Source: Sycon ciliatum (lineage: Eukaryota > Porifera > Calcarea > Leucosolenida > Sycettidae). From it: a DNA stretch of 64,000 bases. Each line of letters opens with the position of its first letter. Within the stretch, counting starts at the first letter, position 1. A program made the translations under genes and the position numbers. The stretch spans positions 74,288,965 to 74,352,964 of the forward strand of contig NC_088643.1 of the NCBI RefSeq assembly GCF_964019385.1. Direction: 5' to 3'. Shown here one piece after another: positions 48,801-54,800 of this stretch. The notes beneath the pieces were generated by a model. That model ran no database searches and had not been told where the DNA came from. It was given only the letters and a program-made list of their open reading frames with translations.

Positions 48801-51800
48801 AAAGCACGACAATTCTCCTTCGCAGAATGCACGCGCGCACAGTTAGTAGTAGTAGTAGTAGTAGTAGTAGTAGTATTTTATTATTTGACTAGGGGAGTCC
48901 CAACAGGCATGGCCTTGTTACAGGGAACCCTAGGTGAATCTTTGTGAGGTGAGCAAAAGTACCACCAGATTGTGCCTGACGACAGTTTGGAGGAAGAGTG
49001 TTCCACCGACCTGCCGCCAGAAAAGAAACTGAGCGCAGTCCATACCCAATATGTACAGTAGGTAATACTAAGGCAGCTGTATCCTGGCCAGTTTTGCTGG
49101 TACATGAGAGACACGCTTGCCTCTGACTGAGTCTGAGCCATGTGCCACTCACCAGCTCGTCGCTTGGCTTCCTGCACCCGGTTGCATGGCCGGTCGTACC
49201 GCACAGCCTTGTGAAGTAGTTTTGTTACCAACACAAAAAAATCAAAAAAACGCGCCAAGTTTCGCTTGTCGGAGGTAGTACTCGAAAGTAGTTTAGCATA
49301 CGTAAAGTAGTTTAGCATACGTAAAGTAGTTTAGCATACGTAAAGTAGTTTAGCATACGTAACGAAGCTGCAAAATATGTCAGCACTGTCTAGGAGCAGG
49401 GAACGTTGCTCCTCCATTGCCTGTCATGCATTGCATGTCAAGCACTGGCAGCATAGCTCAGGTGCTGTGCAGTTCAGGGGTGTGAAATGCCAGGAGCTCG
49501 TGTCCACACTTCAAGCATAAGTGCAGGTGTGGTGTGCAGAAGGGTCACAAATAAAATTCATAACATAGCAAAAAGGAATACTCGAGATCGGTCGAGTACT
49601 CGCTCGGTTTTTCTCCAGGGTATTCGAGCAAGAAATATCAGCACTCGTCTCACCCCTACCGGAAAGTGAATACACGTTCAGTACATGCTACACTTACTTA
49701 TAGCATCGCAGCATGTGCAGTGAATGCAGGATGATGAGCAAGGTAGCAATGAGTGTTGATAAGAGCGACGAAGCTTGGCACGGCAAACACAAACACACAA
49801 ACACATCCGGGATATTGGAACCAGCAATCAAAGAGAACGAAGTGATGAACACCACCAAGAACGCTTGGATAGTGGATACAGAACGACAGCGACTCTGCTC
49901 AACTCAAGAGCACATGCTCGCGAAAATAATCGTCAAAATCAACGTGGGGGAAAACAGGCGTAAAACTCAGTTCCCCGCTCGTGGTGACTGCACATATGAT
50001 TGCTGAATGATCGCTCACAAAGGGGTGGGGGCGGGGGGCGCATTATGCTCAGGTGCGCATTATGCTCAGGTGCACATTATGCTCCGGCAAGTATGATACA
50101 TGTAGAATAGGGATCCAGTTGTACGAGGAACGTTTCTGCCATACCAACGGCGGCGTCCAGTAATGACAGGGTAACTGTACATGAATACTGCCAACTTACC
50201 AAGGGGATTCCCCCAAGGGGATTCTTACCAAGGGGATTCCCCCAAGGGGATTCTTACCAAGGGGATTCCCCCAAGGGGATTCTTGCCAAGGGGATTCTTG
50301 CCAAGGGGATTCTTGCCAAGGGGATTCTTGCCAAGGGGGTTCTTGCCAAGGGGGTTCTTACCAAGGGGGTTCTTACCAAGGGGGTTCTTACCAAGGGGGT
50401 TCTTACCAAGGGGGTTCTTACCAAGGGGATTCTTACCAAGAGGATTCTTACCAAGGGGGTTCTTACCAAGGGGATTCTTACCAAGGGGGTTCTTACCAAG
50501 GGGATTCTTACCAAGGGGATTCTTACCAAGGGGGTTCTTACCAAGGGGGTTCTTACCAAGGGGATTCTTACCAAGAGGATTCTTACCAAGGGGGTTCTTA
50601 CCAAGGGGGTTCTTACTAGTGTTGAAACGAATAATCGAATAATCGAATAATTTAGAATATTCGTGGGGTGAACGAATAATCGAATAGTCGTAGGAATTAT
50701 CAGAAATCGAAAAAAACAAACAAAAAAACGACCTATGCTCAGTGCTGATATTTGCACGGCGTAGATCGCTCGTAGTATTTCTTCTCAATCTCCTCTCCTC
50801 CAAGTTTTAATCTCCTATCGGTATCTAGTAATACTTCTGTTCTTCCCATACGAGGGAAACATGGATGCAGTGAATGTGATTTTCGGTCTTTGACCACTTC
50901 CGACCAAGACCCTATGCAGAGCTGGATCATGCGTTGCACACTCTGGGGGGGGGGGGGGGGGTTGTGTACTCTTGGCGGTACAGGTTAACCGGTTTTGCAC
51001 CTCCACATAACAAAATCCGATAATCAGCAGAATTTTTTTTAAAAAAACTACTTAAAAAGTGCTGAAAAAGTGTTGAAAAATGCCATCATGCGTATGATAG
51101 AATATAGATTATTCGTTCGATGGAGGGCGAAATTATTCGATAGATTATTGGTTCGAAGAATCTGTGTTCGGTTTAATGATAGCTTGCATGCCGTCCTACC
51201 GGTAGGACCACGGGTCCTACCGGTAGGACCCAAGAAATCGCGCTGCAAAAGTGCTTTTGGTTGAGAAATTTCTTGAAACAATTGTTGAGATGAGGTCTTT
51301 GTCAGGCAAAGTAATGGCGCAAAATGCAAGACTATGTCCAGTGCATTGCATACGCGCAATTTTATCAATTGTCAAAATGGCCGCACATACTCCTGTCGGA
51401 GCGCTAGCAACTCTGTCCAAAGTGAATTTTGACCATGGCACATCAATCGTGGTGAGGTACTAATGTTTTTATTAGTCTACCAAGGCAGTGGAGTGCATAA
51501 TTCCATACACCGTTTCCATGGTTACCATTTGCTGTTACCATGGAATTTCGTACTATGCCTTGTGCGATCACGTCTAAAATGTGTGGACTCCTTCATTAGC
51601 CCCTGAGCAACAGTTTAGGGTCAAGTTTTAGGCCAATGTTACAACAATGCCTGAATGGCCATGCAGCATGTCTGTGTATGATGGTCCTACCGGTAGGTCC
51701 TACCGGTAGGACCGAGGTCTATGCAAGCTATCATTAAACACTAGTTCTTACCAAGGGGATTCTTACCAAGGGGATTCTTACCAAGGGGATTCTTACCAAG

Positions 51801-54800
51801 GGGATTCTTACCAAGGGGATTCTTACCAAGGGGATTCTTACCAAGGGGATTCTTACCAAGGGGATTCTTACCAAGGGGGTTCTTACCAAGGGGATTCTTA
51901 CCAAGGGGATTCTTACCAAGGGGATTCTTACCAAGGGGATTCTTACCAAGGGGATTCTTACCAAGGGGATTCTTACCAAGGGGATTCTTACCAAGGGGAT
52001 TCTTACCAAGGGGATTCTTACCAAGGGGATTCTTACCAAGGGGATTCTTACCTGGAATTACGTTCAAGATATCTCTGGCCACCTCGTTGTCTGTAAGTTG
52101 AGTTAAGTTTTGAACACTCGAAAAGATTGAATAGATGGGAGGCACCATCACAACAAGCAGCTGTTGCACACAAACATTCGTACACACACACACACACACG
52201 TACACACGCACGGACACACACACACACACACACACACACACACACACACACACACACACACACATACAAACACACATCCACACAAACATGCATACCCGTA
52301 TTATCTCCCTTATAAACACGGTACTTATATTTTTTCAACCCACCTCGCACCCGTGCTTATAGAGGAGACCGTGATAATACTGGAGACCGTGTTTATATTT
52401 TTTCAACCAGGAAAAAGTCAAGAAAGTTGCATACCGGTAACACACTCAAATTGGAATTTAACTCAGATTTCATGATTAGAGAACAGAGAGAAGAAAAAAG
52501 AATGATGCGAAAGTGGAAGTCACGCACGTGGAGCACTTTTATGTTTTATATGACTGTATGACTGCATTTTTTAACTCGGGGTAGCAGCCCGTATACGTCA
52601 TTTCAAGGTAAGCGCATGCGCACAGCTGCATTCCAGTATTATCACTGTGACTATGATATACAGTCACTAAGAGAGAGGTGAACGAGGGTAGGGGGGGGGG
52701 GGAGAGAGGGGGAAGGGGGGGGGGGAGAGGGGGAAGAGGGGGAAGAGGGGGAAGAATAGCTTACCATGTAGACACAAACAAGACCCAGCAATATGGAGCT
52801 GAGGAAAGCTGGAGAGTAGCTGAATGCTGCACAGGCGACCAAACCACACAAATCACACATAGGAATAATGCAAGCGGTCATGGCTGATGCATGTCCAAAC
52901 TTCTAATTGACCAGAACGGTACACAGCCTAACATGGTTACTGAGAATAGATCAATTCATGACTACATGACTGTACAGTGTTCTGATGAAGGTAAACCAAT
53001 GGTTCAGAGGCCATGCGAGGGAATATTAGGAGTGGCCATCAGCATTTTATGCCGCCGCTGAAGCAAACAATATCGTTCACTTTACGCCCTGCCCCCTTCC
53101 TCCCTCCACCCTCAAACAAGTAGTGTCTGCTATCAACAAGCAGTGTTTGCTACGGTGGACGGTGTGAATCACAAGACATGCCATACCAAGTCAAGAGTTA
53201 CAATGTACAGGGGTGGTGACTTGTCGGAACGGTGGACACAAAATAGGAACTGGCGCAAATTCACTTTCCGTCTTGGTACTGGCTGCACTGGAGTAGTACC
53301 TAGAAAATGTCAGAACCTAGGGTGAATGTCGAGTGGATTCCAAACTATTCTGTTTCTGTGTCACTACAATCTAAAACTAAAAAATGGGTAACTTGAATGC
53401 AACGGATCAACACCCAAAGGAATGTCTCGGTATGATCGACTCTGGCCTCAGGACAAACTAGGACATGTCAGCAGCTTCCTTCCACAACACTTATCTCTGG
53501 TGAACAATCCATGCTGATGAGTCCATGGGTTGAGAAGTTTTCATTGTTAGCCCGTTCTGATACCAATGACAAGGCACAGTTTCCACTACAGTCATGTTGG
53601 TAGACTTGTCTCCACATGTTAGCCGTCTTGCGAATTGCGCTGGGTCCACTTGGGATCAGTTTGGCCCCCTAACTCTGGCTATGGGCCACCGACATTCATT
53701 CTCTTTTCACCATACAGTAGATCTGGGTCAACTTACTGTCCTTTCTCGTAGGGATGGGGAAATTGTCCTTCATGAAAGCAACAATTGTTTTCCACAGGCG
53801 CCGGAGCACAGATCGGGACACGGATATCTTCTCGTCGGCCATTTCCCGGTGCAGCTCATTCAACTTCTTCTCCACAAATCGTCTGCAGTGAGCACACGCA
53901 AGGCAAGAGTCAAACAGAAATACACCAAGTGTCAAGCAGTGGCAGCAGTAGCAGCCATTGTGCAAGGTTCACTACTAACTTATGAGGCCAGATGCCAAAG
54001 ACGGGAGCGGTGCTGTTACAGATGACCATAACATTATCCCGATGGTGACTTAAGCCACTCACTTGAGTAAAGAGGACCAAAATGATCGTGATTGTTTGTG
54101 AATTTGCCTTCGCTTATTGGTGTTTGAGTCTTGCATTGTTTCTCTTTGAGTTATTTCTCTTCATAAAATTTCTTTTTCCAATATTCGTGGCTTGTACAAG
54201 ATATTACTTCATCATACTTCCTCCGAAACACAACACTCTGTGACTTCGATCAACCGGTCAGTTCTGGTGAATTGAGCTCTGAGGAATAGAGCAATGGTGA
54301 CTGCAAGTGAGATTTAAACCAGTATGAGATTGTACGTACTTTAAAAAGAAGTACAGTCCACTCATTGTCTTGAAGTGTTCTTACACTGAGCACAATTTCT
54401 TCAGCAGAGTAACTCCTTAGAATGCGAACAAAAAGTCACAAAAAAAGTCTTTGTTTCCAGGGGAAGTAACCATGGCAGTGATTGTACAGGACTCACCGCT
54501 TCAGCAGGCTTCTGAGATATGGTAGCTCACATTTGGTGCTTCGGCCAAACTCATAACGGGCTAGCAGGTTGACCTGCAGTCAAGTTCCAAGAGCACACAG
54601 CGAATGACATTGCTCTAAAGCCGCTCAGACCAGGCAGAACACACTAGGGCGTGCAGCCCCCCCCCCCCCCCCCCCCCCTACTCTGATAGCGCACCACCCT
54701 ACTCATTTATTTTTATTTTTGTGTTCATCAGTTCACGTAACGAAAAAGCGGCCACAAATCGATCGTTCCGGGTGCTCGCTGCACCCGTACATTGCATTTC

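Follow-up and report, generated by a model that had tools for sequence, protein, structure and literature searches.

In a STRA6-like gene of Sycon ciliatum, the 3' end of a coding exon abuts a tandem array of 15-bp units, most of which carry donor-like sequence; these are two of the features by which a splice-donor minisatellite is recognised. We think it probable that this array is a minisatellite that grew at the 5' splice site by tandem duplication, that its first donor is the one mostly used, and that the agreement between unit length and reading frame is a coincidence. The relevant features of the window, i.e., the whole stretch of 64,000 nucleotides that was analysed, are as follows:

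61418..61494, minus strand: exon 1, the first in the partial model (96% over 25 aa in a paralogue)
60997..61148, minus strand: exon 2 (paralogue 84% over 50 aa)
60576..60696, minus strand: exon 3 (paralogue 82% over 38 aa)
53737..53882, minus strand: exon 4 (50% identity to the paralogue over 42 aa)
52765..52826, minus strand: exon 5 (splice-phase model)
52052..52160, minus strand: exon 6 (AG acceptor, GT donor, phase fitting its neighbours)
51744..52051, minus strand: array 1, 20 units GTAAGAATCCCCTTG and a partial GTAAGAAC, directly 3' of exon 6
50617..51743, minus strand: transposable-element-like insert of 1,127 bp with TAGTGTT...AACACTA ends and an 8-bp duplication GTAAGAAC
50195..50616, minus strand: array 2, a varied continuation of about 28 units (20 GGTAAG, 5 GGCAAG, 3 GGGGGAAT) that ends CTTGGTAAGTTGG
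49698..49863, minus strand: exon 7, the next coding exon (splice sites and phase)
36679..36852, minus strand: C-terminal exon, PF14752 profile 460-517, above cut-off (genome position converted to window coordinates)
35169..35291, minus strand: C-terminal exon, PF14752 512-554, alone below cut-off
34066..34131, minus strand: C-terminal exon, PF14752 583-604, alone below cut-off

Exon 6 (52160-52052, minus strand) comprises 109 nt, is entered in phase 0 and left in phase 1, and codes for 36 residues plus a G; its 3' border, as predicted from the sequence, reads CCAG|GTAAGAAT. Twenty complete 15-bp units follow at 52051-51752 (minus strand), 19 of which are exactly GTAAGAATCCCCTTG and one GTAAGAACCCCCTTG, and a partial unit GTAAGAAC at 51751-51744 closes the array, for which TRF reports 20.5 copies with 99% matches and a score of 609. 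Together with the exon border this makes 21 G|GTAAG donors in a single phase: all extensions come in multiples of 15, each unit translates as GKNPL, and the joins to exon 7 (49863-49698) are open from all 21. The preliminary description had reported this border with some 20 repeats behind it, the same phase at every repeat donor and a stop-free array coding for GKNPL, and was accurate on each of these points. A search of the assembly for the 30-mer made up of two units gives 18 exact matches, none of them outside this array locus.

The GTAAGAATCCCCTTG-type unit recurs in a second array at 50616-50195, which is more varied than array 1 and separated from it by the insert. Both arrays together form one array of about 48 units that the insert splits, the exon-side copies being near identical and the distal copies varied; the split is absent from the preliminary description. 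Elements of the hAT type are marked by short inverted termini and by duplication of 8 bp of the target. Here, GTAAGAAC flanks the insert on both sides (51751-51744 and 50616-50609) and the ends are inverted (TAGTGTT/AACACTA), so that going by these marks the insert is hAT-like. It may consist of two nested elements, since the match to a dispersed repeat (94-99%) covers the first 571 bases and the remainder gives only short matches. Readthrough beyond donor 21 meets TAG as the first codon of the insert, which caps the ladder and thus places the 20 GGTAAG donors of array 2 beyond the reach of an open frame.

Judged by its predicted protein, the gene is a relative of STRA6 and the RBP receptors, as had been proposed, because C-terminal exons on the same strand match both PF14752 and the PDB entry 5sy1. 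The PF14752 match reaches 4.2e-32: the C-terminal exons score 100.4 bits, and exons 1-7 joined to them through a spacer score 112.1 bits, at a curated cut-off of 25 bits. Exons 5-7 together gave no STRA6 match in the PDB, and exons 1-7 together gave no STRA6 or RBP-receptor match in the PDB and Pfam; what these composites matched were unrelated proteins at chance level, and early composites of exon pieces, including stretches later dropped from the model, gave no useful match. A search by splice-site rules between 49.7 and 36.9 kb found no exons, which leaves the gene model partial; the true 5' end of the gene was not found either, and exon 1 denotes only the first exon of this model. In a tandem paralogue upstream, exons 1-4 were found. 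Its exons 5-7, sought for a matching border in the readable sequence, were not seen, and an apparent exon-6 match was judged by eye to be chance.

How the donors compare in strength was assessed from their predicted pairing with U1. The duplex energy is -11.3 kcal/mol for the exon donor, -8.0 kcal/mol for the internal donors, -9.1 kcal/mol for the last donor of array 2 and -3.3 kcal/mol for the GC type. The first donor is the only one with CAG before the cut and has the strongest U1 pairing in the array. The six other donors of the gene lie at -5.5, -5.6, -7.5, -8.0, -8.4 and -10.2 kcal/mol; the internal units equal or beat four of them and therefore look fit for use. Predicted accessibility is 0.24-0.31 at the internal donors versus 0.62 at the first donor, which lends weak support to use of the first, because the RNA of the array is not more structured than shuffled sequences (z +1.42). 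By the same comparison, RNA structure as the selector of the donor is unsupported. Recursive (ratchet) splicing, which expects AG|GT at each unit junction, was rejected as well: the junction reads TTG|GT, and AG|GT is absent from the unit ends.

Growth at the donor would have started from an intron that opened with a pair of GGTAAG motifs at a spacing of 15 bp, CCAG|GTAAGAATCCCCTTG|GTAAGTTGG; the presence of GGTAAG at both ends of the array counts for this. Unequal exchange or slippage between the two motifs would then have expanded the 15-bp unit into an array of about 48 copies, and the insert would have split the array recently. The spliceosome would mostly cut at the first donor, given its CAG and its best U1 pairing, and use of the downstream donors would lead to minor isoforms lengthened by GKNPL blocks. 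That the unit length is a multiple of three, probably a coincidence, would make such mis-splicing mild.

A different weight is put on the same donors if the ladder is a working source of length variants, in which several donors would be used and 5 to 100 residues of GKNPL repeats added to a loop between two membrane helices. The open join from each of the 21 donors, the parity of the internal donors with the gene's ordinary ones in U1 strength and a like ladder in a CLCA gene all speak for it. Its structural basis is an alignment of the ladder exon and its neighbours to residues 266-366 of 5sy1, which appears once the C-terminal exons are added and, with a domain score of -3.1 bits, is weak; by this alignment the junction falls at A317|G318 in zebrafish STRA6. 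The loop with Y336, G340 and G342 of mouse STRA6 is presumably near this junction. According to a figure legend in PMC9992173, these residues are proposed to bind RBP4. For human IFI6, a passage of PMC4526556 has two downstream repeat units acting as donors and yielding isoforms. However, the first donor is predicted to be stronger and the loop position depends on that very weak alignment, and we regard a working source of length variants as unlikely. That the array is an assembly artefact or the exon border false is hardly credible: tandem arrays are often miscounted, but the variants among the units, the target-duplicated insert that splits the array, the unique flanks, the fitting exon phases and the same-strand PF14752 exons farther downstream all argue against it.

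The reading frame can be judged against other arrays in the genome. Five exon-border ladders were found including this one, and two of the five, the STRA6-like and the CLCA ladder (nine donors, unit VRKEIDQ), are in frame, with units that are multiples of three and stop-free. Both would suit a filter by which donor repeats arise everywhere and only multiple-of-three, stop-free ones survive at exon borders, where their mis-splicing is harmless. Yet ladders persist in a dynein heavy chain gene (AAA_6 at 1.6e-41; 25- and 30-bp units, an in-frame TAG preceding all six extra donors), and, with broken frames, in an EGF_LMN_ATRN gene (26-bp units) and an MFS-like exon assigned by eye (31/32-bp units). 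These three suggest that the frame match in the STRA6-like gene may be luck, and we consider the filter very improbable; with no more than five ladders to judge by, a mild one may still be at work. A unit that is both a multiple of three and stop-free is expected by chance in about one case in four (1/3 for length times ~0.79 for five stop-free codons). The earlier proposal that the array is tolerated because it is splice-neutral is not needed, since the same genome holds border arrays whose extra donors introduce a stop or change the frame. On a broader view, 5' splice sites of this animal would be overgrown by minisatellites time and again, and the multiple-of-three, stop-free ones (STRA6-like, CLCA) would give tunable, copy-number-polymorphic length isoforms through donor choice; this seems to us distinctly unlikely.

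Tandem alternative 5' splice sites are neighbouring, competing donors, two or few in number, that cause small changes in protein length; competing neighbours are common to both, whereas the STRA6-like array has 21 near-identical donors. The minisatellite of human IFI6 has a 12-bp unit, a multiple of three, and lies at an exon end. Under its names IFI6, G1P3 and 6-16, this gene was described, to go by the title of the paper, as having a minisatellite that gives multiple splice donors (Turri, Cuin and Porter 1995), so that the view in the preliminary description that no class of such ladders is known to have been described is unsupported. As far as that title and citing passages convey, the likeness lies in a minisatellite with donor-like units, the donors here being predicted; the STRA6-like array differs in belonging to an unrelated gene, with an unrelated 15-bp unit in about 48 copies, and in being split by an insert. 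On these sources, the splice-donor minisatellite is an already known, rare kind with one human gene as precedent, and as a single case the STRA6-like ladder is ordinary in kind. It offers a natural experiment on how 5' splice sites are chosen: only the first of its 21 near-identical donors differs on the exon side. The CLCA ladder is a companion case for effects of position and context, as all nine donors are GTAAGA after CAG and donor strength therefore gives the first no advantage. That such ladders recur within a single genome suggests that new donors regularly arise by tandem duplication across exon borders.

Tandem arrays of minisatellite size abound in the genome. Four of five genome searches for donor-like arrays gave no excess over a reversed-motif control (1849 v 3399, 29 v 76, 36 v 72 and 38 v 88 matches), which speaks for growth as an ordinary minisatellite. 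Counting the other way, GTAAG at period 15 gave more matches than its control (682 v 302); these are overlapping matches, and two long arrays, one of them the array described here, fill most of the listed part. Most arrays whose upstream edge was read had no recognisable exon there; these do not include the seven AAGGTAAG array places, nor L083 and L098, where the retrieved sequence fell within the array. The STRA6-like array resembles the ordinary minisatellites of the genome in size range, in its head-to-tail copies and, by choice of the searches, in having GTAAG or GGTRAG in the unit, but in contrast to most of those read it has an exon at its upstream edge.

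At the end of exon 6 of the STRA6-like gene (52160-52052, minus strand), which reads GTAATTCCAG, an array of 15-bp units starts with no gap. This array 1 (52051-51744) comprises 20 units of GTAAGAATCCCCTTG, exact in 19 cases, followed by a partial unit; it has a TRF score of 609 and far exceeds chance expectation. The resulting ladder presents 21 GGTAAG donors whose added lengths grow by 15 nt per unit, up to 300 nt from 0 at the first, and the open frame is kept in all 21 joins to exon 7 (49863-49698), which confirms both the run of extra donors and its constant, stop-free phase as put forward in the preliminary description. 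A 30-mer of two units matches the 538-Mb assembly exactly at 18 sites, all of them within the ladder locus.

The STRA6-like identity proposed there is likewise borne out, namely by the C-terminal exons. Downstream of exons 1-7 and on the same strand lie three matches to PF14752 (retinol-binding-protein receptor), a profile with matches in 0/14 control genomes:

36852-36679, minus strand, PF14752 match above the cut-off
35291-35169, minus strand, PF14752 match, below the cut-off by itself
34131-34066, minus strand, PF14752 match, below the cut-off by itself

Joined, the C-terminal exons score 100.4 bits against PF14752, and 112.1 bits (E 4.2e-32) when preceded by exons 1-7 and a spacer; among solved structures, zebrafish STRA6 (5sy1) is the best match (E 2.7e-10 and 2.6e-11 in two runs). 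The seven exons (minus strand, 61494 to 49698) have AG/GT borders and compatible phases, and at least one exon may be absent from the model between exons 3 and 4. Exons 5-7 alone and exons 1-7 alone gave no STRA6 or RBP-receptor match, only unrelated ones at chance level; exons 1-7 are assigned to the gene by their strand, order and phases, together with the slight rise in score. Retroelement-like open frames (56616-59657, plus strand), zinc-knuckle and polymerase-like by eye, lie antisense in the intron that separates exon 3 from exon 4. Upstream lies a tandem paralogue with 82-96% identity in exons 1-3 and 50% in exon 4, in which a border matching the ladder was looked for and none was seen in the readable sequence. 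A 6.5-kb stretch of this paralogue is present twice on contig C1 of the assembly (G000), about 0.56 Mb apart, as either a real duplication or a leftover haplotype:

G000:C1:73842000-73848500 versus 74404200-74410750, inverted, 99.0% identity, paralogue copies

Array 2 (50616-50195), which ends in CTTGGTAAGTTGG, repeats the array-1 unit (20 GGTAAG, five GGCAAG and three GGGGGAAT units) and is parted from array 1 by a 1,127-bp insert (51743-50617); array 2 and insert had been overlooked previously. Together, the two arrays constitute one array of ~48 units, divided by the insert. GTAAGAAC flanks the insert at both ends and its termini are TAGTGTT/AACACTA, both marks of hAT-type elements. Bases 1-571 of the insert recur, with 94-99% identity, at no fewer than 39 further sites in the genome (40 of 1,757 candidates scored), and this high identity among copies suggests that the division is recent. 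Beyond base 571 only short matches occur, so the insert may consist of two nested elements. Because its opening codon, read in the exon 6 frame, is TAG, open isoforms are possible from the 21 donors of array 1 only.

Most likely, the ladder reflects ordinary minisatellite growth across a splice donor, and splicing probably occurs mainly at the first donor according to the computed U1 duplex energies: -11.3 kcal/mol for the exon-border donor, -8.0 for internal array units, -9.1 for the final donor of array 2, -3.3 for the GC-type unit and -12.4 for the inferred ancestral donor CAG/GTAAGTTG. Internal donors are also predicted to be more paired (unpaired fraction 0.24-0.31 vs 0.62); the predicted fold of the ladder region, though, is not more stable than that of shuffled sequences (z +1.42; 96/100 shuffles at least equal). 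However, the same computation gives -8.4, -10.2, -5.5, -5.6, -8.0 and -7.5 kcal/mol for the six other donors of the gene, four of which the internal units equal or exceed in strength, and this weakens the first-donor reading. Downstream ladder donors may also be used and give isoforms. In a phmmer alignment of exons 4-7 to 5sy1 residues 266-366 at -3.1 bits, from which the numbering was computed, the ladder junction falls between A317 and G318, presumably in the same loop as Y336/G340/G342 of mouse STRA6. These three mouse residues are given as proposed RBP4-binding residues in a figure legend of PMC9992173; the placement of the junction is a lead, not a result.

The statement that no class of such ladders had been described did not hold: a human IFI6/G1P3 minisatellite with multiple splice donors (Turri 1995) is cited in passages of PMC4526556 and PMC3618361, and its title stands in the reference lists of these two and of PMC2572611 and PMC2915984. 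Like it, the STRA6-like ladder is a minisatellite carrying multiple predicted donors; the kind is already known and the present locus is a new instance. Judged by titles and abstract openings, no further donor-ladder study was recognised among the papers listed by the literature searches.

The more interesting part is the repeated occurrence of border ladders within one genome (L-numbers label sequence pieces; C1 and C4 are contigs):

G000:C4:32993348-32993536 (L084), CLCA-like gene ladder, exon ...FMWHQFRDQ, then 21-bp units
L016 1501 onward and L021-L025, G000:C1 ~1.961 and ~2.185 Mb, dynein heavy chain ladder
L091/L099 pair, EGF gene (laminin/attractin) ladder, 26-bp, CAGGTGAG units
L091/L099 pair, MFS-like exon ladder, by eye, 31/32-bp, CAGGTGAG units
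L078, candidate ladder, by eye only

The CLCA exon matches PF08434 (2.1e-6) and has exons on either side; its 21-bp unit encodes VRKEIDQ, and nine GTAAGA donors preceded by CAG give in-frame, stop-free extensions. Two CLCA paralogues have, by eye, a single donor and an intron at the same position and phase, which suggests that the array was joined to an already present border. The dynein units (25/30 bp) copy the exon tail and provide seven donors, the six extra ones lying past an in-frame stop; a similar inverted copy lies at ~2.19 Mb of C1. The EGF gene matches PF24973 at 1e-6 on the joined exon pair and at 0.074 on the ladder exon by itself. Neither the MFS-like ladder exon nor the L078 candidate exon had a match in the Pfam search. 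Two of five ladders (STRA6-like, CLCA, dynein, EGF, MFS-like) are in frame and stop-free, at a chance of ~1 in 4 each; a frame filter is thus not demonstrated, though one may exist.

Genome-wide, threefold motifs, counted as overlapping matches rather than arrays, gave 1849 matches for GGTAAG vs 3399 for the reversed motif, 29 vs 76 for CAGGTAAG, 36 vs 72 for CAGGTGAG, 38 vs 88 for AAGGTAAG, and 682 vs 302 for GTAAG at period 15. Array places were grouped by eye and their upstream sides judged by eye and reading frame, a procedure that a border lacking a recognisable exon would escape. It covered 8/9 CAGGTAAG places (array edge not reached in L083), 10/11 CAGGTGAG places (not reached in L098), 0/7 AAGGTAAG places and, among the matches listed, 12/13 GGTAAG places and 5/8 period-15 places besides the ladder locus. 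Elsewhere in the window, at 11062-11552, a 49-bp unit containing TACTCAC/GTGAGTA is repeated ten times almost without change (99% matches).
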